Shown piece by piece: positions 22,186-64,000 of a stretch of DNA of 64,000 nt (positions are counted from its first letter, which is position 1; the number at the start of each line of letters is the position of its first letter). Location of the stretch: positions 12,146,614 to 12,210,613 of the forward strand of contig CM028328.1 in the NCBI GenBank assembly GCA_016647705.1, given 5' to 3'. The notes under the pieces were generated by a model that was given only the letters and a program-made list of their open reading frames with translations, searched no databases and was not told the origin of the DNA. Source of the DNA: Eucommia ulmoides (taxonomy: Eukaryota; Streptophyta; Magnoliopsida; Garryales; Eucommiaceae). Both the position numbers and the translations under genes were made by a program.

Positions 22186-22922
22186 GTAAGATTCTGTTCT
22201 TTCCGCCGAGATTTCTTGGCTCGTTATTTTTTCCAAACGGATAATTGCTGGAGATATATGTAAACTTCGCACAAGGGTTTCTTTATTGCTTTAATTTCAT
22301 GTCGATTATTCACATTTTTCGTTTTCACTTGGGTTTTAGATGATCGACGACAATTAATTCTCAAATCCTGGCATTTTGGATGTTTTTAGTTCATTAAATC
22401 TTAATATTTCTGGATTTTAGTTATTTATTTTTCCTTTTTTCTCCTGAATTTCTAAGAATTTCTGTCCGCTCTGAAGACTGAATACACGATTGATGCATTT
22501 TCAGAGAGGGGAAAAAAAGGTTTTTAGGGTTTTCTTCGTCAATTGTATGTGCATGTTTTTTCCTTCGCATGAGTTTTTGATTATTTATTTATTTATTTTT
22601 GTTGATTAATAGTAATTGCGAAGGGTAGAAATTATGATATTTATTTATTTTTAATTTGTCCTGCTAATGCTGTTCTGGAATTGGGAATTTTCCGGTACTT
22701 GTTCTCAGTAAATGCTGAAATCTCAAGCTTAGCTGTTCTAAAGCAAATTCTGGATTTCCGAACCGCAGTTTCATAATCCCCAATCCATTCTGCCAAACAG
22801 GCCCTTATCATTTTTTTTATTGATTTTCCAAAATTTTAATGATTTAAATTCTAAAACCCCATCTTCAATCTTCAATCTTTTTTTTTTTTTTTTTTTTTTT
22901 TGCAGGCTAAAAAATATTCGAT

Positions 22923-25900
22923 ATGGACTTTCCTGAATCAACAAAAGTCGTATTCAATCGAATCCAAACCCTAGAACCGGACAATGCATCAAAAATCATT
23001 GGCTATCTCCTCTTACAAGATCACAACGAGAGAGACATGATCAGGCTCGCTTTTAGCCCTGATACAGTGATCCAATCCCTGATTAATCGGGCCAAAACCC
23101 ATCTCAATCTGGCCAAAACCCATCAATCAGGTCCGATCTCTCCTTCCCAATCAAGCCCAAAACCCGTCTCTGATCTTCCTTCAAACTTCACCCCCTTTTC
23201 ACCATCTCCATTCACTCAATTCAATCCATACTATGCTTATTTGGATTCAAACGCCGACAATTATCATTTAAACACACAATTTCAGTTAGATTCCGTTAAT
23301 TCAATTAATTCGGTTAATTCCGATTCATATTATGTCCCTGAACCGGCTTTAGGTCCTAGAACAAGTAGAAGATCCCCGAGCTTGCCCGATTTTCCAGTTA
23401 AGGTTTGCCGTTACTTCCTTAAAGGGTTTTGTAAGCACGGGAACAACTGCAGGTACTTCCATGGCCATGCGACACACGATAGCTTTCCTCAAATCTTAAG
23501 TCTGGGTTCGGGTTCAAATTCAAATTCAAACGAGGATTGTGTTTTTTTGCCTGGGTCACTCGATAAACTTGAGATGGAGTTGACTGAGCTTTTGAAATCG
23601 AGGAGGGGAGTGCCTGTATCAATTGCTTCTCTGCCAATGCTCTTTCATGATAAGTATGGGAGGCATCTTCAGGCCGAGGGGTATTTAACCGAGAGCCAAA
23701 GAAATGGGAAGGCCGGTTATAACTTGGCTAAGCTTCTCTCCCGTTTGAATAGCATTCGTGTCATTGATAGGTACAAAAAAATATCTCTGAAAAAATCTGT
23801 TTTTTGTTTTCGGAATAATTCTGTTCTGTTACCATAAATTTGAAATTTTGAACTAAAACTCGGGGTTGAAAAGGTTAAAAGAAACAGAATTTTTTTGTCC
23901 CGTGTTTCTGTTTCTATTCCCGTTTCTCTTGGAACGGAAACAAAAGATGCAGAAAGAGAAACAGTAAACAAACACCACCTAAGGCTCATAATTTGTCTGG
24001 AAATACTAATAGCAGTCGTCTCATTTTGTGTTACTAGAGCAGAGAAACAAAAGATGCAGAAAGAGAAACGGTAAACAAACACCACCTAAGGCTCATAATT
24101 TGTCTGGAAATACTAATAGCAGTCGTCTCATTTTGTGTTACTAGAGCAGAGAAGGCTCGTATTTGTTTTTTGTTCCCATGTTTCTGTTTCTGTTCTTGGT
24201 TTTCTAGGAACCGGAAAAAAAAATGAAGACAGAAGTGCTAAACAAATGTTACCTAGGATTCATGATTTGACCAGAAAGGTCGGTTTTTTTATTTTTTAAA
24301 AGCAATTATTATACAATTATTGTTGTTTTATTGTAGGCCTCACGGTCAGCATTCGGTGATTTTGGCGGAAGATTATCTGAAATATGTAGATTACAACGGG
24401 GAAAGAAGTGAGCACGGGCCGATTGTGGTTGGATCAAGGCAAATATATCTCACTTTTCCTGCTGAAAGCACTTTTACGGAGACCGATGTTTTTAACCATT
24501 TCAGGTAAAGGAGCTTGAACGTTGGTTTTTTTTTTTTTTTTAATTATTATTTTTATTTTTAGGGTCGGTTTGGTTTTACAACTCAAAAACGTTATGAAAA
24601 TTTTGAAAGCAGTTTCCGAAATTACAGAGAAAACTTTACTAACTTTTTTTTCACATTTACGGAATATTTGACAGCATGTTCGGACCGGTTCAAGATGTTA
24701 GAATACCTTGTCAGCAGAAGAGGATGTTCGGTTTTGTGACTTTTGTTTCTCCAGATACAGTCAAGTTGATTCTTGCTAAGGGCAACCCTCATTTTGTTTG
24801 TGGAGCCCGTGTTCTCGTGAAACCTTATAGAGAGAAATCAAAAGCCCTCGACAGGTTGATACTTTTTTACCCCGTATATTTTAAATTAAAAAATCCTCAA
24901 TTTTTTAATTGAAAATTTTCTGAAAAAAATACATTTTCTTTTCTGCAGGAAATATGTGGATAAAGTTCATCAGCCAAATTACTATGGTTCGCAATTTCTT
25001 GATCAAGAATCCGAGTTTCATCCAAGTCGATATAAATCTTAAATCAACTTGAACTTTTCTAGTACATTTAGGCCCTATTTGTTTAGGTAGCGTTTGGAAA
25101 CGGAGAATTGGAGCCTTGGAATTGGAATTAAAAATGAAAGCATGTAAATTTTTAAATTTTTGGATGCGTTCTTTTCTAGTTCCTAGTCCAAAGCTCCAAC
25201 TCCATGCGACCAAACACTATCTTAGTGTTCAAAAAAATTGTTTCTGTTCTCCTTCCGGTGTTTTTGAACAGATTTCTGGGAATTAATGTTCACAGATTTC
25301 TGTTTCTGTTCTAAGTTTTTTGGGACAAAAACCAAAAAAAAAAAAAAATCTAAACAAAAGCCACCTTAATCTTTTGGTGTGCTATTTATTTATTGTTTTA
25401 TTTTCGTGCAGTGCCCAGTTTTCGCGATGATTCGAGATTTCTGAGGCAACATTTTATGGAAGAACATGAGCAGGCTCTAGAACTTGAGAGTTTACGCGTA
25501 ATGGAATTGAGATTAGCCAATGAACAATTGAATCGACATCCCCATTTTGGATACTCGGTCTCAATGGATGAATTGGAACCCTCTAAAGGTCTTTTATTTC
25601 TTACAATTGAAATTTCTCAAAAAATAAAAGAACCCGAATTTTATTTTATTTTATTTTATTTTTCAATTTTTTACCCATAGGTCTGGGCAGAATGGAGAAT
25701 TCTTCCGCCGAGAGCATTAATTTTCCACCAGACGCTTTTGACAATGGTTTTACTAGTGAGGAAAAAGTTAGGGAAGTAAAGACTAAATGCAATGAACAGG
25801 AAAGGTACGACATATTTTTTATTTTTAACCCTGATCGTATGTTTTTCAAATTAAGCCCTAAAATCTTGCCAGCTAGTCATTCTTCTTGGCTTTTTGGGTG

Positions 25901-35303: not shown

Positions 35304-35639
35304 CGTTGCGTTCGGTACGTTAGAATTTGAACGAAATGACAATACGATTGGAATTATTATGGTAATGGAATGAAATTGTCATTTTCATTCATATATTTGG
35401 TGACAAAAGGGATTAGATGTGGTATTGAATTGATCATCCTTAGTCCGATGTTTAAGTAGTATTGGAAATAAATCAAGAATGGAATGCATTTGTATAATAA
35501 AGGTTTCCTTTGAAAAACGTACAATTTTTTTAAATAAAGAATATTCGAACATAAATCAAATCAAATACCAAGTAAGAGGTATGTAGAGTTCTTAACCAAA
35601 AATGTTTATTAAAAAAATAATTTCTGAAAACGGTATACT

Positions 35640-36110
35640 TCAAACTTATTTACGGGAGTAGTGTAAAACGCAATAACGAAATGCGTTTTTCGAAAAACGC
35701 ATTTTCAAAATGCGTTTTTAAATAGGGAGTTTGAACGGTTAAAAACGCAAAACCGATTTGCGTTTTTAAAAAACGCAAATCGGTTTTGCGTTTTTCAAAA
35801 CCCAAAAAAAAAAAAAAAAAAAAAAAAGTAAAAACGGAAAAAAAAAAAGGAAAAACGCAAAACCGATTTGCGTTTTTTAAGAAACGCAAATCGGTTTTGC
35901 GTTTCTTAAAGCCCCCCCCCCCAAAAAAAAAAAAAAGTAAAAACGCAAAAATAGAAAAGGAAAAACGCAAAACCGATTTGCGTTTTTTAAGAAACGCAAA
36001 TCGGTTTTGCGTTTCTTAAAAAAAAAAAAAAAAAAAAAAAGGCTCTGAAAAAGGAAAAACGCAGAAGTGTTCTGCGTTTTTAAAAACGCAGAACACTTAT
36101 GTGTTTTTCA
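35640..36110. repeat. Left subterminal hairpin array of the MULE
   Basis: At least five successive fold-backs. The repeated form is AACGCAAAACCGATTTGCGT followed by its inverse AACGCAAATCGGTTTTGCGT (35750-35790, 35855-35905, 35963-36018). Others are built on AAATGCGTTTTTCGAAAAACG (35680-35720) and GCAGAAGTGTTCTGCG (36060-36100). They are separated by long A or C runs. Confidence 0.9.
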
Positions 36111-36750
36111 ATTACACCCCACCACCGACAGCTTCTTCTTCCTCACTTTGTCACTGCCGTTTTCACCCGTTTTCACCGCTACGGTAAAAACACAGAAGAA
36201 GAAGAAGAAGAAGAAGGGAACTGCCGTCAATCGATCCGCCGCCGCCGTCGCCATTTTCGTCGTCTGTCGGGTATGTAACACGTACACGATATATATATTT
36301 TTTTTGTTCAGTTGTTTTTTTTTAATTTTTTTTCTTCGAAAATGTAGATATATATCGGCTCTCCGTCGCCGTCACCCACTCTTTCGCCGCCGATCTAGCT
36401 CCTTCAAGGCTGTTTGTCTCATTTTGGTGAGTAAACCAATTTTTATTTTTATTTTTCGGTTTTTTCGTAATGTAGATCTAGATTTATATAATTTGAAAAT
36501 AGTTTTTTGGTAATGTAAATCTAGATCTGTAGATGTAAAACAATTTTTTTCTTTTAGTGGTTTCGGTTTTTTTTTTTTTTTTTTCCGATTTTTTTGGTTT
36601 TATTTTGTGTGTATGTGTGTGTGTGTATATATATATATAAGTATTTCGGTTTTTATGAGGTAGATTGGATAATTTAATTTTTTTTAGTAATATAATTGAT
36701 AATCATAATAATACGTTACATGTTTTATTTTGATTTGTGAAATTGTAGTT
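36110..36750 (+). promoter_or_regulatory. Promoter and leader exons of the transposase gene
   Basis: A CT-rich then GC-rich leader (36115-36268) ends GTCTGTCGG/GTATGTAACA. A second leader exon of about 78 bases follows an AATGTAG acceptor near 36347 and ends CATTTTG/GTGAGTAAAC near 36426. A third begins after GAAATTGTAG at 36749, nine bases before the ATG. These splice calls are by eye. Confidence 0.5.
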
Positions 36751-36757
36751 ATTTGAA

Positions 36758-39448
36758 ATGGAGAATGTTACATTATATTTGTATTGGGGTGGAAAGATAT
36801 TGGAAGGAACTGAGTTTGGAGTGTCATATAGCATGTTTACGGTCAAATCGTTGGATGTTTGTCGGGGGATTACGTTAAACGAATTAATTGCGATGTTACG
36901 ACCATATATCTTCGAGGATGGAGTTGATGGAACTTTAAAGTTACAATGTAGGTTGCCGATAGCTACTATTGGTCCTGGGAATTATAGACACATGTTGTAT
37001 TCAATCGGTGACGATGCGGCATTAGACCATGTGCTTCAATTACCTCTTAGGGTGCCCTCACTACTTGGTGTTGAGGTGTATGTGGAGGTAGAACGAGCTT
37101 TTAATCACGCTCCAATATTTTCTTCTCAACCTGGTCTTTTTACCCAATTTTTAAGTCAAAATTTCAATCCTCATGTTACCGCGTTATCTCTTATGTTTGA
37201 CCCTCAAGTTGTTCAATCCAGTTACACTCACCGGTCGCCTTACATTCCTAAAGAATATCATCCCCATATAGTGACTGATCATGATTCAGGCACCAGTTCT
37301 GCCGCTCCACCGCACGAGAATGTGGAGGGTGGGACGAATACAGTCGATAGTTTTCACGATGTTGAACAAACAGAGTTAGATGGTGCTTTTGCGTTAGAGG
37401 AAGATGAGAATGGTGGGGATGAAGATGAAGATGAAGATATGGATGTCGAGCCGACAATGGATGGGAGTGAACAATTACCGTTACACAAGGTTCCTTCATT
37501 CTATAATCAGTTGGAATGGGGTGATGATGATGATATGGCAAAGTATGAGCCAAAGTTGCGAAAGAATTTTTGGACCCCGGAAATGGACGAATTTAATTGT
37601 GGCATGGTCTTTAAGGACAAGAAACATATTCAAAATGCCGTGAAATATTATCATGTTATGAAAAATAAAGAGTATCGTGTGGTAGAGACGAACCAGAAAA
37701 TTTGGTCGATTAAATGCAAGCATGGTTGTGGGTGGCGGATGCGGGTGACTCTAAAACAGAGTCACGGAATGTTCCAAATTACGCAGTACAACGGGCGACA
37801 CATGTGTTTCTATAATCATACGGCATTGGATCATGGAAACTTGGATTCGGGTGTCATTTCTGACATGATACTTGGACAGGTCGAAGAGGATCCAGAAGTG
37901 AAGATGGGTGTTATCGTTGCGTCCGTGAAAGAGTCTCGGGGATTCACTATCTCCTACCAAAAGGCTTGGTTGGCTAGATCTAAAGCCATCGAGACCTTGT
38001 TCGGCGATTGGGATGAATCGCATCGAAAGTTGCCGAAATTCATGTCGGCATTGCAGCACTTTAATCCTAGGACAATTGTCGAATGGAGTATTGTTTCGAC
38101 TACTGTAGTTGGTTATTCGACATTCGACATGGTCTTTTGGGCATTCGAACCTTCTGTGGTCGGATGGAGATATTGTCGACCTGTCCTCACGATTGACGGG
38201 ACCCATCTGTATGGTAAGTACGAAGGAAAGATCTTGATCGCTATTGGGATGACACCGTCCAATAAGTGTTATCCTATGGCGTTTGCGGTGGTACCGACGG
38301 AGGACCACCGCTGTTGGTCCTGGTTTATTTTGATGCTGAAGCGCCATATTGTTAAAGACCGGCCGGAAGTCACGTTGATATCTGACAGACAGACTGGCAT
38401 TCTTAGTGCAGTAAGAACTTTATGGCTTAATCAACCGAACGAGCCCGCTCGGTATCATCGATTTTGTTTGCGGCATCTTTGTAGTAATTTTAATAACATC
38501 TTTAAAAATCAACAACTAAAAGATCTTGCGTGGAATGCCGGTGCTGCCATACAAGTTCGAAAGTACAACGCTATCATGGAAGAGATTGCGAAAATAAAAA
38601 TGGGGGCGTATACATGGTTGGATAACGTAGCCAAAGATAAATGGACCAGGTCACACGATAATGGTAAACGTTGGGGCGTGTTGACAACCAATTATGCCGA
38701 AGTATTCAACAACTGTTTGAAAGGTGCAAGGAATGTCCCAATTACAGCTGCCGTTTCAATAACTTTCTATAGGTTGGTCAAATACTTTGATCTCGGTCGA
38801 CAGGAAGCTCTAAAGGATATGGGCATGGGTTTGGGATACGTAAAACATGTTGTTGAGAAAATTCAGAAATCCCAAGCGAAGTCTAAAACATACGACGTCC
38901 AAATATTCAATCGGTAAGGTTTTTTAACTTGCAATTTATTAATTAGTAATATATATTTTTTAACTGATCATCTAATTTGATTTATAAATATATTTAATAA
39001 TAGGGAGAATGCACGTTACCACGTGAAAACGAGAAAGACGTTGTCCGGTGGTATTGTTACACACAAAGTTACTTTAGGTGATAACCCTGATTGTACTTGT
39101 GGGAAATATAAGACTTTCAGATATCCATGCTCACACATGCTTGCGGTGACGGAGTATTGTGGTACAGATGCGTTTCGCTACATCGCTGATGAGTACACAA
39201 TAGCAAACTTGTTGAAAGTTTGGGAGTCATCATTTGAACCGATCATTCACGAGGACTATTGGCCGATGGTTAACTTTCCGATCTTTCTTCCTAACAAGAA
39301 TAGACTTCGAGTTGTGAAGCGCGGACGACCTAAATCCACTCGCATTCGAAACGAAATGGATGTGTCGCAGCAGACAATGACAAATCGGTGTGGGTTGTGT
39401 TCTCAAACTGGCCATGATAGGCGAACATGTACATCCCGACCCCAATGA
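36758..39448 (+). CDS. MudrA-type MULE transposase
   Basis: Two exons, 36758-38913 and 39004-39448, joined by a GT-AG intron of 90 bp (CG/GTAAGG...AATAG/GG), give 866 aa with a closed frame. Parts in order: an N-terminal region with LYLYWGGKIL; an acidic stretch (about 212-236); the MuDR DNA-binding domain (about 281-350, with the cysteine cluster IKCKHGCGWRM); the MULE transposase core with D480 (LTIDGTHLYG), D543 (LISDRQTG) and the C570-x2-H573 motif (FCLRHL); the block TTNYAEVFNN; a SWIM zinc finger (C749-x-C751, C761-x-H763); and a C-terminal CCHC knuckle (C848, C851, H856, C861). It should bind the terminal repeats and catalyse cut-and-paste transposition in the nucleus. The third catalytic acid was not assigned. 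No stop or frameshift is seen. The ATG follows the leader acceptor by nine bases. Confidence 0.93.
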
Positions 39449-39661
39449 GATAACAATTGTAATGGAGACAACAATTTTTATTTTTTATTTTTAATTTACT
39501 TTATGGTTGGAACAATTTTAGTATATTGTGTTGTATTATATTTTCGTTTAGTATATTGTTGTTTAGTATATTGTCATTTAGTATATTGTCGTTTAGTATA
39601 TTGTGTTGTAATATATTTCCTATATTACTACTTCATATTTTAGTTTCAGATTATTGCTGCT
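39449..39661 (+). promoter_or_regulatory. Intergenic region between the two MULE genes
   Basis: 213 bp. A short tandem repeat of TTTAGTATATTGT words (39540-39600) precedes the second gene. There is no obvious TATA box beyond these T/A runs, so the second gene may have its own promoter here or be made from a read-through transcript. Confidence 0.4.
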
Positions 39662-41991
39662 ATGGCTGAACCTGGTCCCGTCGATCAGTCGTTACTTTAT
39701 TTGCAGAGAGACCACAGATCTGGGACTGTCTGGGAAGAATGCGGAGTGCAGGTCATATTAAAAAAATATTTACCCAGTCTATTCATTTTTTTTTATTTAG
39801 TAATTTTTAAATTAATTGTCTTTTAATTTATATTTCAGCATTCTTCTCGGCTTGACTGCTCCGGAGCCGGACGGTTTCCAGGGGAATGGACGAACCATGT
39901 ACCTGGTCGTGTGGTACAATTAATAGAAGCCGTCGGACTTTATGGAGCCTTTCGGTTAAAGAAAAAGCAGTTAGACCACGCATTGATTACGGCGTTGGTT
40001 GAGAGATGGCGTCAAGAGACGCATACGTTTCATCTGCCGATTGGTGAGATGACAGTGACACTGCAAGACGTAGCAGTGTTATTTGGGCTGCCCGTGAACG
40101 GACGACCAGTTACCGGGTCTGACGACACCTTGCCGACCGTACGTTGGCAGGAACTTTGCCAAATCCTACTCGGTCACACACCGCCGGAGGACAAAATCAA
40201 AGGAGGTTGTCTGAAACTGAAATGGTTACAGTTCACTTTCGATCGAGTACCCGCCGACGCCGATGAGGACATTATGCAGTGTTATGCTAGGGCGTACTGT
40301 CTGATATTTATCGGGACAATATTGATGCCTGACAAATCTAATAATTTGGTTAAGTTAAGGTACTTACCATTGTTGCGCGATATGTCTGGGTCGCATCAGT
40401 ATAGTTGGGGCAGTGCAACTTTAGCGGTACTGTATCGAGAGCTGTGCAAGGGACGTTGTAAGGAGACGAAAAAAATTTCAGGGCCCTTATTTTTATTACA
40501 GTGTTGGGCATGGGAACGACTCCCGAGACTACGGCACGTGTCTCTCTCTACTACCGGCGATTGGATGGGTGACCTACAGATAGGGGACATGAGGTTCCCA
40601 GGCGCCCCTTGGGGGTCTCGGTATGTTATTATATAATAAATGTTTATGCAATTCAAATATTTCATTTCATGTAGTAATAATTAATTTTTATGGCTGCATA
40701 CAGTTGGAAAGTATCATTCAACTTAGATAGCGAGCCGATGCACGTATTGATTGTGTATCGTGATCAGTTAGATCGTTTACAAGATTATGAGGTCGGTTAT
40801 ATATTTACGTAAGATGTTACTAATGTTTTATATATGATTATATTTATTATTTAATTAATTTATTTGTATGTTGTTTGCAAGGTTATTTGGATGTCGTATC
40901 CAACTGATCTCTTGGACCAATTACCACAATATTGTCGTGATGGCGAAGAAATTTGGATGGCGTCTGTGCCCCTGATATGCTACGAAATTGTAGAGTATCA
41001 TTACCCCCATCGCACACTACGACAGTTTGGTTTTTGCCAAGGAATTCCCTGGCTAAGCGACACATATAAAGATATGCATTTCAATAGCCGGAGGGGGAAA
41101 TTTGGCACAGACTGGTCGATAGTGCACGGGGCATATATACGAGCGTGGGATAGCCGGCGACCACCAGATTTAAGTAACCTTCAGGTTGGTACATATGTAT
41201 TTGATGATTACATGCCTTGGTATTGGGGAGTCACAAGGCGGTTTATAGTGAACCCATCTTACCGACCGAACTTCGACTATCATGCAGTAGGAGGTCGTCC
41301 GATGATAGAGGTATAATTTAATTAGAACATATATTTATTATTTTGTATAATGTTCATTTACTTAGGTGTAATTAACTTTATATTGCAGGAACCCGATATT
41401 TCAAACCTGATGCGAATGAGTGAACTTGCAATTCAAACAAGACAACCAGAGGATTTTGAACGGGTTACATACTTATCGTGCGACATTTGTTCCCGTGCCT
41501 ATCGTCGGCAGTTGCCACACCAGATGCCTAGTTCGGGACACCAGATGCCGAGTCCGGGACACCTGATGCCGACGCCGCCGTTGGATACGCGAGATCAGCC
41601 GTTGGATGACGACGCCAGTGCCGGACCATCTACCTACGGGATGGATAATTTCTTTTCAGATTATGGTACCGAACTGGGTGTCAGTTCCGGATGGTCAGTG
41701 GGTAACACATTTGTCACCCCGATGATAGATGTTCCATCATCGAGCTCAGTATCTGTTACTCGTGTGACACATGGTGTACCCAGAGGAATTGGAAGACGCG
41801 TGTCACCAGTCCCATGGGAGCGAAATGATGAATATTTGTTGCCCATCGTGGAGGAACCAACATATCCATCTACTATGGACTTGGGACACATTACTCAAGT
41901 TGATCATCTCCAGACAGAGGACACCGAAGATCTTCCACTTCCTTTACGGCGGCAACGGAGAAACATCAGACGTAGGGGGTGTGGTACATAG
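39662..41991 (+). CDS. Plant mobile domain (PMD) protein carried by the MULE
   Basis: Five exons (39662-39751, 39839-40620, 40704-40791, 40882-41310, 41389-41991), all GT-AG, total 1992 bases, closed frame, 663 aa. Residues about 45-460 match the plant mobile domain, the aminotransferase-like family that includes Arabidopsis MAIN and MAIL1: GLYGAFRLKKKQLDHALI, FHLPIGEMTVTLQDVAVLFG, YARAYCLIFIGTILMPDK and WGSATLAVLYRELC are its usual words. The tail (464-663) is proline/serine-rich with a three-fold HQMPS-GHQMPS-GHLMPT repeat and a basic end (RRQRRNIRRRG) that could act as a nuclear signal. No phosphatase domain follows, unlike some host members. It shares strand and termini with the transposase. 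MAIN and MAIL1 act in silencing and genome stability; a role here in transposition or in countering silencing is speculation. Confidence 0.88.
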
Positions 41992-42099
41992 AAACTTAAT
42001 GACGACATGTATTATAATTTGTAAAAATATATTATATATTCATATGTAATTTTATTTTAATTTCAATTAGTATAATTTTTTTTAAAAAAAACGCATATA

Positions 42100-42238
42100 T
42101 TATTTTCGTTTTTTTTGGAATCATTTCATACTAATCAAAAAATGGTTCTTCTAAGCCAAATATGAATGAGGAAAACGGTGGGAAAATGGCGAAAAAAAAA
42201 CAAAACGCTCTTGAAAAAAAAAAAAAAACAAGCTCTTG

Positions 42239-42271
<33 letters not shown>

Positions 42272-42360
42272 AAAACAGGAAAACGCACACTGCTGAAGAA
42301 AAAAAAAACCACACTGATCATTACTCTCTTTTATTTTTTTTTATTTTTTTTTTGAAAAAC
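42100..42360. other. A-rich tract after the PMD gene
   Basis: Long A runs (42219-42269) and T runs inside the MULE; no gene. Possible 3' end signals for the PMD transcript lie at 42020-42060. Confidence 0.5.
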
Positions 42361-42610
42361 GCATAAGCTTTATGCGTTTTTCAAACGGTTTTTTTTTTTT
42401 TTTTTTTTGAAAAACGCAGAAAGCTTCTGCGTTTTTCAAACTTTTTTTTTTTTTTTTTGGTTTCAAGAAACGCAAAACCGATTTGCGTTTTTAAAAAACG
42501 CAAATCGGTTTTGCGTTTTTAACCGTTCAGACTTCCTATTTAAAAACGCATTTTGAAAATGCGTTTTTCGAAAAACGCATTTCGGTATTGCGTTTTACAC
42601 TACTCCCGTA
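42355..42610. repeat. Right subterminal hairpin array of the MULE
   Basis: Mirror of the left array: GAAAAACGCATAAGCTTTATGCG (a near-perfect fold-back), GAAAAACGCAGAAAGCTTCTGCG, then the AACGCAAAACCGATTTGCGT pair (42468-42520) and the AATGCGTTTTTCGAAAAACGC fold-back (42545-42590). It merges into the terminal inverted repeat. Confidence 0.9.
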
Positions 42611-43015
42611 AATAAGTTTGAAGTATACCGTTTTTAGAAATTATTTTTTTAATAAACATTTATTTGGTTAAGAACTCGAGGTATGTATATAGAGAGAGAG
42701 AGAGAGTAGTGAAAGAAGAAGAAAGAAGAAGAATAGAGAGGTGGTGGATAGGGATTTTTCTAATCCTATTCCAATTTTTGGTTGGCGATTGGTCGCGTTT
42801 TTTGAATGATGAAAAATTAGAACCTAACCCTATGTAATTATGATTACCTAATACTAAGTTTATCTTGAGATTAATTAATCCTATATTTTGTGGGATTAAA
42901 AAATTCTTGATAATAAGAATGAAATTTAATCCCATGAATCAAATCTACGAATGAAATAATCATTCCCTTAAGCATTCAAATCCCTTACCAAATTTGTGTA
43001 CCAAACATGCTGTAA

Positions 43016-58588: not shown

Positions 58589-58635
58589 CACACTAAAAGC
58601 CTCCCTTAATCATCAACTTCCCACGAGGTTAAGAT

Positions 58636-60600
58636 TTGATGATCACAAGGTTTGGGAAGGAAATCCGCCAGGCCGACCAAGCGCCCGCCACCAACAGCAA
58701 TCCACCCCCCATATCCGTGCATGATATGTTTAGAGTTCCCAGGTCGGATCCCTCGGTACCTCCTGAGGAGGGGATCCACCTGTCCGCCATCCCACCGTCC
58801 GGGCTGGAGGGACCGACCACTCAGCAAGCCACCCGAGTAGGACCTATCTTGTCTCCAGAACAGCTTGTTGGGCAGGCCTCTAGAGCGCCTGAGGCAGCCC
58901 GCGTCGATTTTTTGGAGCGTCAGCTCAGCAAATTCCAAACCTTCTTCCACATCGTCCTGACCCGCTTGCTACTAGTCCCTCCGATGGACCTTCCTACAGT
59001 CCAAGTTGCGAGCAGGGAGGGTCGAGCGGTCGTGGGTGAAGAACGTATCATCCGTTCCAACGGACGTGACCTGCCGCCTCGGATCCGCAACGTTAATCGG
59101 AGGGAAGTGGAGGTGGCACCCCCTGAGATCTCGGGATCCCCGTCATCACCTCCACCACGGCGAAGGAGAGGCGACTGAGCCGAATCACCCCTCGCCCATA
59201 GCGCTACCATGTGGTCCGATCATCACCCCCGTCGCTTTCGGGAGGTCGATTCACATTTCTTACCACGACAGCTCCCATCTCGGGCCACTTTCAGTTAAGC
59301 TCGGGCCCAGCCAGGGGCTAAGATGGTAGTAGAAAGGCGCTTAGCTAACATGGAGGTGGCCTTGCAACAGATCCGGGGAACCAGGGGCCTGTCTAGGCTT
59401 CCCTCAGAGGTAAGATCTCCTTTCATCAATGAAATTTTGGAAGAGCCCTTGCCCGCGCGATACACCTATCCCCAAATGGTCCTATATGACGGTGTCACTG
59501 ATCCGGAGGACCACTTGTCCATCTTCAGGTCGTATATGGATCTACACTCCGCCTCAATAGCAATGAGGTGTAAGGCATTTCTCCTCACCCTCACGGGGGC
59601 CGCCGGGGCTTGGTTCCAAACTTTGGCACCAGCTTCCATCTCCAATTTTCACGAGTTAGAATTATTATTCCTTTCGCGATTCGGGCGATCGCGACGTAGA
59701 CCAAAAACCATGGCCCACATTCTCGCACTCCAACAATTACCCGATGAGTCGCTGGGGGATTATGTGGAGAGGTTTTACAAGGAGATCATCGGGTGTGATG
59801 AGCTCAGTGACATGGTCGCGATGAGCGCATTCATCGACGGCCTGAAACATCAACGCCTCATGTATGACCTCTATTCTAACCCAGCTCCTACTCTGGATGC
59901 TGCCCTAAAGAGAGGCACGAGGTTTCATAATGCTGATGAGCGGGAAGCAGCGAGGAAGGACCAAGGAGGTAGTCACAAGAAGAAAGGAAAGGCAGAAGAA
60001 AGGCCGAACAAACACCATGGATCCAAAAGGCTACAGGCAGAAGGGAGGCTGGGGCCGTTGCCCGGAGATCGGAGATCGTTCCCGCCCCAGGGAAACCGCC
60101 AACAGAACTACACGCCTCTCACCGTCTCGGTGGCCACCATCTTAGCTGAGAATGCAGGGAGGGATTTTTTTCCTCCTCCTCTTCCACCCAGCGGAAAACC
60201 GATGGGGAGGTCTATGGACAAATACTGTGAGTTCCACAAAGACCGGGGACATTCTACCGAGAATTGTTTTCGACTTCGGGAAGAAATTGAAGCCCTCATT
60301 AGCAGGGGGTACCTCGGTCGCTATGTTCGAAGGGATGGCCGAGCTCCCAAAACGGAGGAGCGTGACTCCCGCGAAGAACATAGGGGTCGCATAAGAAAAA
60401 GAAATAGAAGTCACCCCCCTCCTAGGTCAGATGCAGGGAGGGACGATGACGAGCACAGGATTGATGGCGAGATTAACGTCATCCACGGAGGATTGGGCCT
60501 TGGGAGAGAGACCCTCTCATCCAAGAAGAGGTACGAGCACAAAGCCAAAAGAAAAGTGAGCGAAGACGTCTTCACGGTCAGCACGGTTAACGCTGCAGAG
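58636..60600 (+). pseudogene. gag region of the Tat-lineage element
   Basis: It contains the plant retrotransposon gag domain (MVLYDGVTDPEDHLSIFRSY, GAAGAWFQTL, LPDESLGDYVERFYKEI) at about 59450-59900 and a knuckle-like KYCEFHKDRGHSTENC near 60220-60270. The part before 59180 is proline-rich leader protein. It would form the particle core. Fossil, not intact. Confidence 0.85.
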
Positions 60601-63100
60601 CACAACGTTATTTCATTCAGTGAGAAAGACCTTAGGGATGTGCATGTGCCCCCACGACGACGTCCTCGTCATCATGGTGATCATCCATCACTACAAAATG
60701 GGACGGATCCTGGTAGATGGTGGTAGTTCCGCTGATATTATCTTCAAATGGGCATTTAAGAAAATGAACGTAGATCTCAGCGCGATAAAACAGTCGATGG
60801 CCCCTAGTCGATTTTGGAGGGGATGTTGTGAACGCCGCCGGGTGGATCTCGCTTCCAGTAACAGTCGGGGCCCATCCACGGACCTCCACTGTTTGGACCA
60901 AATTTCTGATCATAGACAAGCCCTTGCCCTATAACGCAATCATGGGTCGACCCACGGTGGCTGCCCTTAAAGCCGTCTGTTCCCCATATCACCAAGCGAT
61001 GAAGTTTCCCACCGAGGGAGGTGTGGGAGTGGTGAGGGGTGACCAAGAATCCTCCCGGGCTTGTGCACGGAGGGCATTGGAGAAGAAGAAATAGCAATCA
61101 TAGACGGAGCTAAAGCTCAGAGATTCCGAACTCATGGCTCTAGGTCGGGGGCTAGTGCCTATGCCCATCGATGATCCAAGAGAGGAGGAGGCTGGTCCCC
61201 GACCTCATGAGGAACTGGAGGAGGTTTCCATACACCCAACCATTGAAGAGAAAACTGTTAGGATCAGTGCTAGTCTCCCGTCCGAATAGAGGGATAAACT
61301 CATCCAACTACTCCAACGCAATTACGATGTCTTTGCCTAGTCCCATGACGAGCTGTTGGGTATTGATCCGAGCGTGGCAATGCACCGCCTCCATGCTGAT
61401 CTACATCATTCTCTCGTGCGGCAAAAATGGCAGAAATTTCATCCGAAACGCCAGAAGTTAATTGAAACAGAGATGGATAAATTGATTAGCTCTGGCGTCG
61501 TTGAAGAAGTTAAATTCCCGGACTGGTTGGTGAATGTGGTCTTGGCTTCCAAGGCTGGAAACAAGTGGCACCTCTGTGTTGATTTCAAAGATCTGAATAA
61601 AGCCTGCCCGAAAGACTTCTTCCCCCTACCCCAGATTGATATCGTCATAGACGCCACAACGGGGTATGAGCGCCTGAGTTTCCTCGACGCCAATGCTGGG
61701 TACAATCAAATTCCACTGTTTTCTCCCGATAAGAGCAAAATGTCGTTCATCACTGATAGGGGTACATACTGTTACAAAGTAATGTCGTTTGGCTTGCGCA
61801 ACGCCGGAGCCACTTATTAACGACTGGTGAACAAAATGTTCAAGGAAGAGATCGGAAGGACGATGGAGGTTTACATTGATGACATGTTGGTCAAGAGCTC
61901 GAGATCCCTTGACTACACACAACATCTCCACGATTGCTTTGAGAAACTCCGGGTCCACTGCATGAAACTCAACCCAAACAAATGTACTTTTGGGGTTTCT
62001 GCTGGAAAGTTCCTAGGGTACATGGTCTCCCAGCACGACATCGACGCTAACCCCGATTAAATACACGCGATCCTCAGAATGGCCTCCCCTCGGAACAAGA
62101 AGGAGGTACAGAGTGCTAAGGGGTAGCGACAATTTTGGGTGGACCAACGAGTGCGAGTCAGCTTTCTAAGCGCTCAAGAACTATCTGTCCTCTACTCCTC
62201 TGCTCAGCACCCCGAAGGAGGAGAAGACCCTTTACCTATATATTGTCGCGTCTGCAACAGCGGTGAGTGCTGCTCTTGTGAGGGATGACGTCGGGGCCCA
62301 GTATCCGGTCTTTTACTCTAGCAAGGTCCTCTCGGATACCAAAACGAGGTACACCAAGTTTGAGAAACTGACTTATGCTCTACTGGTGGCTTCTCAGAAA
62401 CTGAAACAGTATTTCCAAGCACACTAGATCGTCGTCCTCACAGACCAGCCAATAAGGCAAATTTTGCATTTACCAGACATCTCGGGGTGGTTAATGAAGT
62501 ATAGCCTTGAGCTGGGTCAGTTTCATATTGAATATCGCCCTAGGACGGCCATTAAGGGTCAGGTCCTAGTAGATTTCATCACTGAGCTCACATTTCCTGA
62601 GGACCTCGAGCCACCCGCCACTCAACCAGAAGTAAGAAGGGTGGAAGAAGGGGAAGTGCAGGGTGACTCCAGCCCAGATAACGATCTGGCGACATGGAAG
62701 CTGTTTACCGATGGATCATCCAACACCAGTGGTTGTGGAGCGGGGATGGTGCTCGTTGCCCCAGGCAATGAAGAAATTGAGTACGCCCTAAGACTGGGGT
62801 TTAGAGCAACTAATAATGAGGCAAAATACGAGACTCTACTGGCCGGGCTCTGTATGGCCAGGGAATTCAATGTGACGGTATTGTCCGTCTTTTGCGACTC
62901 TCAGCTGGTCATCAACCAGGTCAATGAGGAATACTTAGCGAAAGACCCTAGTATGACTGCGTATCTTGAGAGGGTCAAAACCCTGATGGGGGAATTCAAA
63001 GAAATCAATGTATCCAAAATACCACGAGAGGAGAACCGGCACGCCGATGCCTTGGCAAACCTTGCCTCGGCAGTAGCGTTAACCCTGAAGCGAAGTGTGC
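60600..63100 (+). pseudogene. pol region: protease, reverse transcriptase, two RNase H domains
   Basis: Protease-like words lie near 60640-61000 (with ILVDGGSSADII), reverse transcriptase at about 61390-62060 (WHLCVDFKDLNKACPKDFFP, VYIDDMLVK), the first RNase H at about 62210-62480, and the second RNase H-like domain at about 62690-63060 (LFTDGSSNTSGCGAG, NNEAKYETLLAGL). Two RNase H domains in tandem point to the Tat lineage. Fossil, several interruptions. Confidence 0.88.
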
Positions 63101-64000
63101 CAGTTGAGTATCTCGATGCTCCGAGCACGACAGTTTCTGACCGAGTGGCTCCAATCTGTGAGCTTAATAACCATCCCACTTGGATGGACCCCATCCGTAA
63201 ATATCTGAAAGACAGAACGCTCCCCGACGATCGCAACGAAGCAAGAAGGATGCGATACAGGTCAGCCAGATATTGCATTCTGGACGGGGTCCTGTATCGA
63301 CGTTCCTTCTTTGGACCATACTCACGGTGCTTGTGGCCGGAAGAAGCCGACTATGTAATGAGAGAGACCCATGAGGGAATCTATGGCAATCACTTGGGGG
63401 GCAGGGCCTTGGCTCGAAAACTCCTCCGCCAAATATATTTTTGGCCAAAAATGCTAGAAGACGCGAGTGAGTTCGTAAAAAAAATGTGACAAATGCCAAC
63501 GTTTCGGTCCCCACCCTTATCTACCGCCAATGACCATGGTGCCCATGGCGAGTCTGTGGCCCTTTGCCCAATGGGGAATCGACTTGTTGGGCCCTTTTCC
63601 ACAGGCCACTGGTCAAAGGAAATTCCTCGTGGTCTCTATCGACTATTTCACTAAGTGGGTGGAAGCCGAACCCCTGGCCTGCATTACCAAGGAGAAAGTC
63701 CGGGACTTTGTCTGGAAGTCCATGGTGTGTCGGTTCGAAATCCCGAGGGTAATCGTGTCCGACAACGGCACTCAATTTGACAATAACTTGTTTACTTCTT
63801 TTTGCTCCGGCCTGGGTATCTGAACACACTTTGTGTCTCCTAGTCATCCGCAAGCTAATGGACAGGTAGAAGTCACGAATCGAACGGTTCTACACGGTTT
63901 AAAGACCAGACTTGACAAAGCTAAAGGGAGGTGGGTGGAGGAACTTTACTCGGTCCTCTGGGCATACCACACCACTTCCCGGACCCCGACTGGAGAGACA
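63100..64000 (+). pseudogene. Integrase region of the Tat-lineage element
   Basis: A zinc-binding HHCC-type part (about 63350-63500) is followed by the catalytic core, with WGIDLLGPFPQATGQRKFLV, VSDNGTQFDN and SHPQANGQVEVTNR, running to the window edge. Fossil. Confidence 0.88.

Follow-up and report, generated by a model that had tools for sequence, protein, structure and literature searches.

The plant mobile domain (PMD) was first described with a rice Mutator-like element (MULE; Babu 2006, as cited by Ikeda 2017, PMC5418596), and PMDs are present in many plant MULE groups, among them VANDAL, MuDR-9_OS, MULE-Monocots, MDR, MUDRAVI2 and MUDR (Dupeyron 2019, PMC6446971). The use of the PMD genes to the transposon has hitherto been a guess, and a family of copies allows it to be addressed by a selection test. 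Here, we describe a MULE in a 64-kb stretch of the genome of Eucommia ulmoides (C4:12146614-12210613, genome size 946.7 Mb; the whole stretch is called the window and all positions without prefix are counted in it). The element (35586-42677, 7,092 bp) carries a transposase gene followed by a PMD gene, head to tail on one strand. We put the probability at roughly 0.88 that it belongs to a recently active, autonomous-looking family in which PMD is a selected second gene. An earlier inspection of the window, made from its letters alone (the sequence-only reading), had regarded the element as a clear case for PMD as a transposon-encoded accessory protein; that it would be the first such case is not supported, given the many PMDs of plant MULEs reported by Ikeda 2017 and Dupeyron 2019. 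PMD-bearing MULEs are known. What is new, as far as our searches show, is the within-family selection test on PMD and a set of 15 dyads with identical arms.

The element resembles the PMD-MULEs of Dupeyron 2019 (PMC6446971) in its SWIM transposase, in inverted ends of the listed lengths and in its PMD reading frame; its target duplication of 10 bp compares with 9-10 bp in group MUDR of that study. However, according to the same source the PMD of most MUDR elements is in antisense and that of MUDRAVI2 often so, whereas the window element has its PMD as a gene of its own, in the same orientation as the transposase. The PMD-C MULEs of grasses and Amborella (Ikeda 2017, PMC5418596) likewise combine PMD and a MULE transposase in one element, but as fusion proteins. 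Here the two genes are unfused: a stop codon and a 213-bp spacer lie between two separate reading frames, so that the element is no fusion MULE in the sense of Ikeda 2017 (PMD joined to the transposase). The stop codon at the end of the transposase is retained in all 18 other full-length copies described below (17 TGA, 1 TAA).

Copies of the family were found by a search of the same genome with the end sequences, in which the best 40 of 770 candidate places were scored; 20 loci were fetched first, then 10 more end matches. In 18 of the first 20 the two ends are 6.8-7.4 kb apart and both genes are in place, except that L011 lacks the beginning of PMD, 206 nt of the reading frame with one splice pair. 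The other two are L016, a 1.6-kb derivative, and L019, which is rearranged and retains one end and portions of both genes. The gene region of the 18 full-length copies is 97.4-98.2% identical to the window, and 6 of the 19 full-length copies, window included, have no stop or frameshift in either gene, as judged on the window exon model, which was drawn by eye from the window sequence. All splice dinucleotides that are present are retained in 17 of the 18 other full-length copies, the exception being one altered acceptor in L018. The ten further loci (L029-L038) are derivatives of 1.6-1.8 kb whose PMD gene is reduced to its final part; they have no transposase and therefore need help to move, if they are mobile at all. 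The outermost 12 bases of the element, GAGTTCTTAACC, are present in 58 of 60 ends of 30 copies. A target duplication of exactly 10 bp flanks 12 of the 20 first-fetched loci, three have one mismatch and in five, including the one-ended L019, none was found; the corresponding numbers for the ten further loci are seven with exactly 10 bp, one with 9 bp and two with none. Transposase exon 1 was also searched genome-wide: the best 62 of 5,698 candidate places are 92-100% identical, and 16 of the 62 are without a stop in this exon. The element has many copies in this genome, and the view that it is a young, possibly autonomous two-gene MULE, already taken from the sequence, gains support.

For the selection analysis, we used the window element and the 18 full-length copies; the 12 short or rearranged fetched loci were left out. 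Variants were divided into private ones (in one copy only) and shared ones (in at least two copies). Variants common to several copies passed through transposing ancestors. For private variants, PMD has a ratio of nonsynonymous to synonymous changes (N:S) of 166:50 and the transposase one of 144:52, close to the 3.4 and 3.7 expected from the numbers of sites (binomial p 0.87 and 0.08). Shared variants are 31:34 in PMD and 19:25 in the transposase (p 2.7e-7 and 3.1e-7). Private and shared variants thus differ in both genes (Fisher, PMD 2.1e-5, transposase 2.6e-4). The difference persists when CpG transitions are omitted (1.2e-4 and 1.4e-4); in PMD it also persists without the repeat region (6.5e-6) and in exons 2-4 alone (106:29 private vs 20:31 shared, p 9.8e-7). 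Mean dN/mean dS, the rates of nonsynonymous and synonymous change, is 0.44 for PMD and 0.36 for the transposase across all 19 copies, and 0.33 and 0.42 across the six uninterrupted ones; PMD is under purifying selection, as the dN/dS test proposed with the sequence-only reading was meant to reveal. C to T or G to A changes make up 178 of the 216 private changes in PMD and 156 of the 196 in the transposase, an excess that would fit the decay of silenced, methylated copies. In the literature, our search returned no study of selection on PMD among MULE copies, which is weak evidence of absence since many papers were out of reach.

Several observations weigh against these conclusions. PMD exon 5 without its repeat gives no selection signal (41:12 private, 9:3 shared), on few sites. 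When the six uninterrupted copies are taken by themselves, PMD has no contrast between private and shared variants (39:32 vs 4:4, Fisher p 1), because its private variants in these copies show the depletion already (p 4.6e-5). The transposase of the same six copies gives 42:21 vs 1:4 (p 0.057). Compared with single copies, the window has PMD ratios of 0.26-0.91, highest for L010 (0.91) and L017 (0.73), and transposase ratios of 0.29-1.11, highest for L009 (1.11), L017 (0.78) and L010 (0.69); L010 and L017 are the nearest relatives of the window element, and private changes weigh most in such pairs. In addition, the copies were chosen by the resemblance of their ends to those of the window element and only part of the candidates was scored, and uninterrupted frames and motifs make the element a candidate for autonomy only.

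Could PMD be a passenger, a host gene captured once and drifting since, with the transposase alone of importance? MULEs are known to capture host genes, such captures have been inferred for PMD (Ikeda 2017, PMC5418596), and exon 5 without its repeat appears unconstrained. Yet the shared PMD variants are as depleted of amino-acid changes as those of the transposase and PMD is, therefore, a selected component and no passenger. This rejection by the private/shared test leaves the passenger explanation extremely improbable, and the company that PMD keeps also speaks against it: PMD sequence, whether intact or not, lies downstream on the same strand at all 62 scored transposase places (best 62 of 5,698). 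With the PMD exon-2 search (best 147 of 1,830 candidates scored), 54 of these 62 places had a match in the same orientation, 662-1,033 bp downstream. At seven of the remaining eight the last PMD exon is downstream, six times at 2.4-2.6 kb, comparable to the 2,478 bp of the window, and once at 6.2 kb. The eighth place, C8:3194844, was considered as a transposase copy lacking PMD, and this was ruled out by PMD exons 1 and 2, which are present in its fetched DNA in the usual position, exon 2 being frameshifted and split over two frames. The sequence-only reading had asked whether PMD is kept with the transposase across copies, and this is so in 18 of the 18 two-ended full-length copies as well as at the 62 scored places. 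Mobile members without PMD, or proof of a one-off capture from a host gene, which it had named as outcomes that would count against it, were not seen in the part of this genome that was inspected; the incomplete members fetched are 11 transposase-less derivatives of 1.6-1.8 kb and L019. Co-retention and purifying selection in this genome both support its proposal that PMD is a transposon-encoded accessory gene.

A third argument against a drifting passenger comes from a related MULE locus, L039, which keeps a related PMD despite near-saturated synonymous sites. PMD exon 2 of L039 is about 61% identical to that of the window (pN 0.26, pS 0.78, saturated, these being the proportions of nonsynonymous and synonymous differences), and the comparison of transposase exon 2 gave dN 0.18 and dS 1.22. 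L039/L045 represents another type of MULE (L039 3026-3228 and L039+L045 7350-7551), in which PMD and transposase run in opposite directions. Its PMD is preceded by a duplicated transposase 3' end (94%) in sense orientation; in our reading this sense copy may be a trace of an older order, transposase then PMD. L039 had been considered as a PMD-only element between inverted repeats, but a further 0.9 kb of sequence contains the transposase in opposite orientation, and what had looked like an inverted repeat duplicates the 3' end of the transposase gene. A tandem array of long repeats is located before the PMD and the sense copy in L039. From this type, L039 and the short similar pieces L046, L047 and L049 were fetched. 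It seems to be abundant, because many matches to the PMD profile PF10536 have its profile range and frame length.

The scan of the genome with PF10536 gave at least 143 matches, from the best 117 of 2,460 candidates, and no match in 14 control genomes. At L040, the fetched DNA begins with part of a transposase C-terminus (34% identical), closely followed downstream by a PMD that is 54% identical over its best stretch. The PMD of L042 is more distant, and L043 is a locus that we take to be a possible host PMD gene. The region C4:2507473-2604771 has nine PMD matches on one strand, six of which span the whole profile in one open frame; L041, from this cluster, has no introns in the domain. A tree of 12 PMD sequences from this genome (L042, with 73 aligned residues, and L048 left out) joins L043 to L040 (0.995; 95) and leaves the deep branches unsettled (0.19 and 0.78; 56 and 66).

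These loci bear on the idea that MULEs like this one were the source of domesticated host genes of the MAIN/MAIL type, which had been raised from the sequence. Host MAIN, MAIL1, MAIL2 and MAIL3 have the PMD in common with the window element but are immobile. PMD loci are numerous among the best 117 of 2,460 candidates and several of those inspected sit in MULEs, most not having been inspected singly. However, MULE PMDs were placed inside the PMD-C clade of host genes and capture by MULEs, the reverse direction, was inferred (Ikeda 2017, PMC5418596). Our own tree is undecided, with its unsettled deep branches and L043, by our own labelling, as the single likely host gene. The idea is thus unsupported and we regard it as very unlikely.

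The structure of the element itself is that of a MULE. The target duplication GAGGTATGTA is identical in its two 10-bp copies at 35576-35585 (left) and 42678-42687 (right; both unstranded), exactly as described before. The left terminal inverted repeat with the tip GAGTTCTTAACC (35586-35805, plus strand) and the right one (42456-42677, minus strand) are about 222 bp long and 96% identical; their alignment of about 222 columns has nine mismatches and a single gap of 2 nt. The earlier description of the terminal bases as perfectly inverted is therefore correct for the outermost 15 bases, which agree between both ends, and incorrect for the whole repeat. Assignment to the MULE superfamily follows from the MULE-type transposase domain, a target duplication within 8-11 bp and the terminal inverted repeats, which occur in most, not all, MULEs. 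The element has a transposase and is thus no Pack-MULE (host gene fragment, no transposase); with its MULE ends and transposase it is also no Ty3/gypsy PMD-A element, in which PMD is within a long terminal repeat retrotransposon. Ty3/gypsy pieces do occur elsewhere in the window, at 58633-63489 (gag, reverse transcriptase, RNase H-like, integrase zinc-binding), and a piece of a CCCH zinc-finger gene of the AtC3H46 type, likely a host gene, is present at 22911-23837.

Both genes splice in closed frames, in agreement with the sequence-only reading. The transposase (866 aa, uninterrupted) is encoded by two exons on the plus strand: exon 1 (36758-38913) harbors DBD_Tnp_Mut and the MULE domain, exon 2 (39004-39448) the SWIM domain, the C-terminal CX2CX4HX4C pattern and the stop TGA. 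The spliced protein matches the Pfam families MULE (PF10551, 2.6e-16), DBD_Tnp_Mut (PF03108, 1.3e-6) and SWIM (2e-6), all above the cut-offs. The acidic residues in TIDGTH, SDRQTG and NYAEVFN, which we take to be the DDE catalytic site, are all three in place. The spacer (39449-39661, plus strand) has five copies of TTTAGTATATTGT, of which 2-5 exact ones are present in the 18 other full-length copies; the 15-bp tandem repeat with this sequence (39517-39617) varies in copy number. PMD (663 aa, uninterrupted) is encoded by five exons, likewise on the plus strand: exon 1 (39662-39751), exon 2 (39839-40620, PMD profile 1-192), exon 3 (40704-40791), exon 4 (40882-41310, PMD profile 239-346) and exon 5 (41389-41991), which encodes a tail with a 21-nt repeat and a basic C-terminus. 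The repeat (41517-41572) is longer in all 18 other copies, by 21-84 nt (55 in L013, out of frame). PF10536 matches the spliced protein along the whole profile (1-346 of 347) with 1.6e-84 and 284.5 bits, against a cut-off of 34.9, and the product is hence a PMD protein. All five introns of the two genes are GT-AG, 78-90 bp long and have 14-20% G+C, as opposed to 43% in the coding sequence of the transposase and about 49% in that of PMD. Scans that reach close relatives only, of viral and prokaryote contigs for transposase exon 1 and of viral contigs for PMD exon 2, found no relative, and no solved structure matched either exon by sequence.

The non-coding ends of the element harbor arrays of a 23-bp dyad, AAACGCA-N9-TGCGTTT (all unstranded). 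The left array (35666-36106) has nine exact dyads and one with one mismatch, the right array (42357-42595) six exact ones, and a further right dyad with one mismatch is at 42089-42111; together these are 15 exact dyads and two with one mismatch. The arms of 7 bp are identical and the nearest arms are constantly 9 bp apart, while the cores differ and fall into about nine types. There is no dyad beyond the element ends within the 64-kb window, even with two mismatches allowed, and 2,000 shuffles of each end produced none. Each of the 18 other full-length copies carries 8-17 exact dyads (15-22 with two mismatches allowed), all of them at most 700 bp from an end with the sole exception of one in L013. 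CpG is enriched in the dyad-bearing ends (observed/expected 2.2 and 2.6 vs 0.87 outside the element). A literature search for such dyads in MULE ends returned nothing, again weak evidence of absence with many papers out of reach.

We infer that a dimer, of either the transposase or the accessory protein, may bind the 23-bp dyads in both ends. Constraint on the arms was considered: they are less diverse than the rest of the ends (0.027 vs 0.058), but a control with shifted labels was equally extreme in 26 of 206 shifts, so that the difference is not significant. Alternatively, the ends could be nested palindromes that make hairpin RNA and attract small-RNA silencing, which PMD would merely offset. 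The left array does fold far better than shuffles (z -15.6, DNA parameters) and a 25-bp form of the dyad has 12 matches vs 0 in shuffles; however, folding by itself is no sign of function, and in our judgement a constant 9-bp spacing with differing cores suits a binding site more than plain hairpins. We therefore hold the hairpin explanation to be quite improbable. Repeat arrays just inside the ends are also found in another MULE, Muta1 of Aedes, a type 2 Foldback element (PMC5225508), but there they are nine 12-bp direct repeats next to one transposase gene, and no PMD is mentioned in the accessible text, whereas the window element has dyads and a PMD.

What does the PMD protein do for the element? 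From established MULE biology, the transposase would excise the element and reinsert it with a 10-bp stagger by cut and paste. With less certainty, the PMD protein may be an accessory factor that aids the persistence of the element. It could interfere with the silencing pathway of the host PMD proteins MAIN and MAIL1, which resemble it and work with PP7L in silencing (PMC7156037). A counter-silencing role of MULE PMDs was called 'tempting to speculate' (Ikeda 2017, PMC5418596), and a 2021 review holds that transposon PMDs may counter silencing. Anti-silencing directed at the host MAIN/MAIL1 pathway is our leading guess, held tentatively and at less than even odds; the selection signal would be identical for any useful role of PMD and so does not speak for this one. 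PMD could also act directly in transposition instead, as an integration or end-binding cofactor (cf. the proposal for maize mudrB). That PMD is selected and travels with the transposase agrees with such a role, and two-gene MULEs with a second protein said to be necessary for integration exist (Dupeyron 2019, PMC6446971), but the reported roles of the host PMD proteins MAIN and MAIL1 lie in silencing and gene expression (PMC5418596, PMC7156037), and we consider a direct role rather unlikely. The remaining probability belongs to other roles, which we do not name.

An anti-silencing function of PMD would have a precedent in the VANDAL/VANC MULEs (Hosaka 2017, PMC5735166), which likewise have a transposase, an accessory gene and short repeated non-coding motifs. 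The difference is that VANC21 binds YAGTATTAY, while the window element has PMD as accessory gene and a 23-bp dyad with putative binding. It is tempting to go further: PMD may for long have been a second core gene throughout one branch of plant MULEs, a mimic of MAIN/MAIL1 that disarms silencing, with the AAACGCA dyads as address tags for PMD or the transposase. We regard this as unlikely in its full extent; if true, the PMD mimic and its dyad tags would be a PMD-based counterpart of the VANC anti-silencing system. For the family itself, PMD is retained as faithfully as the transposase, and its many copies make the family a defined system for direct tests of whether PMD counters silencing or serves as a cofactor.

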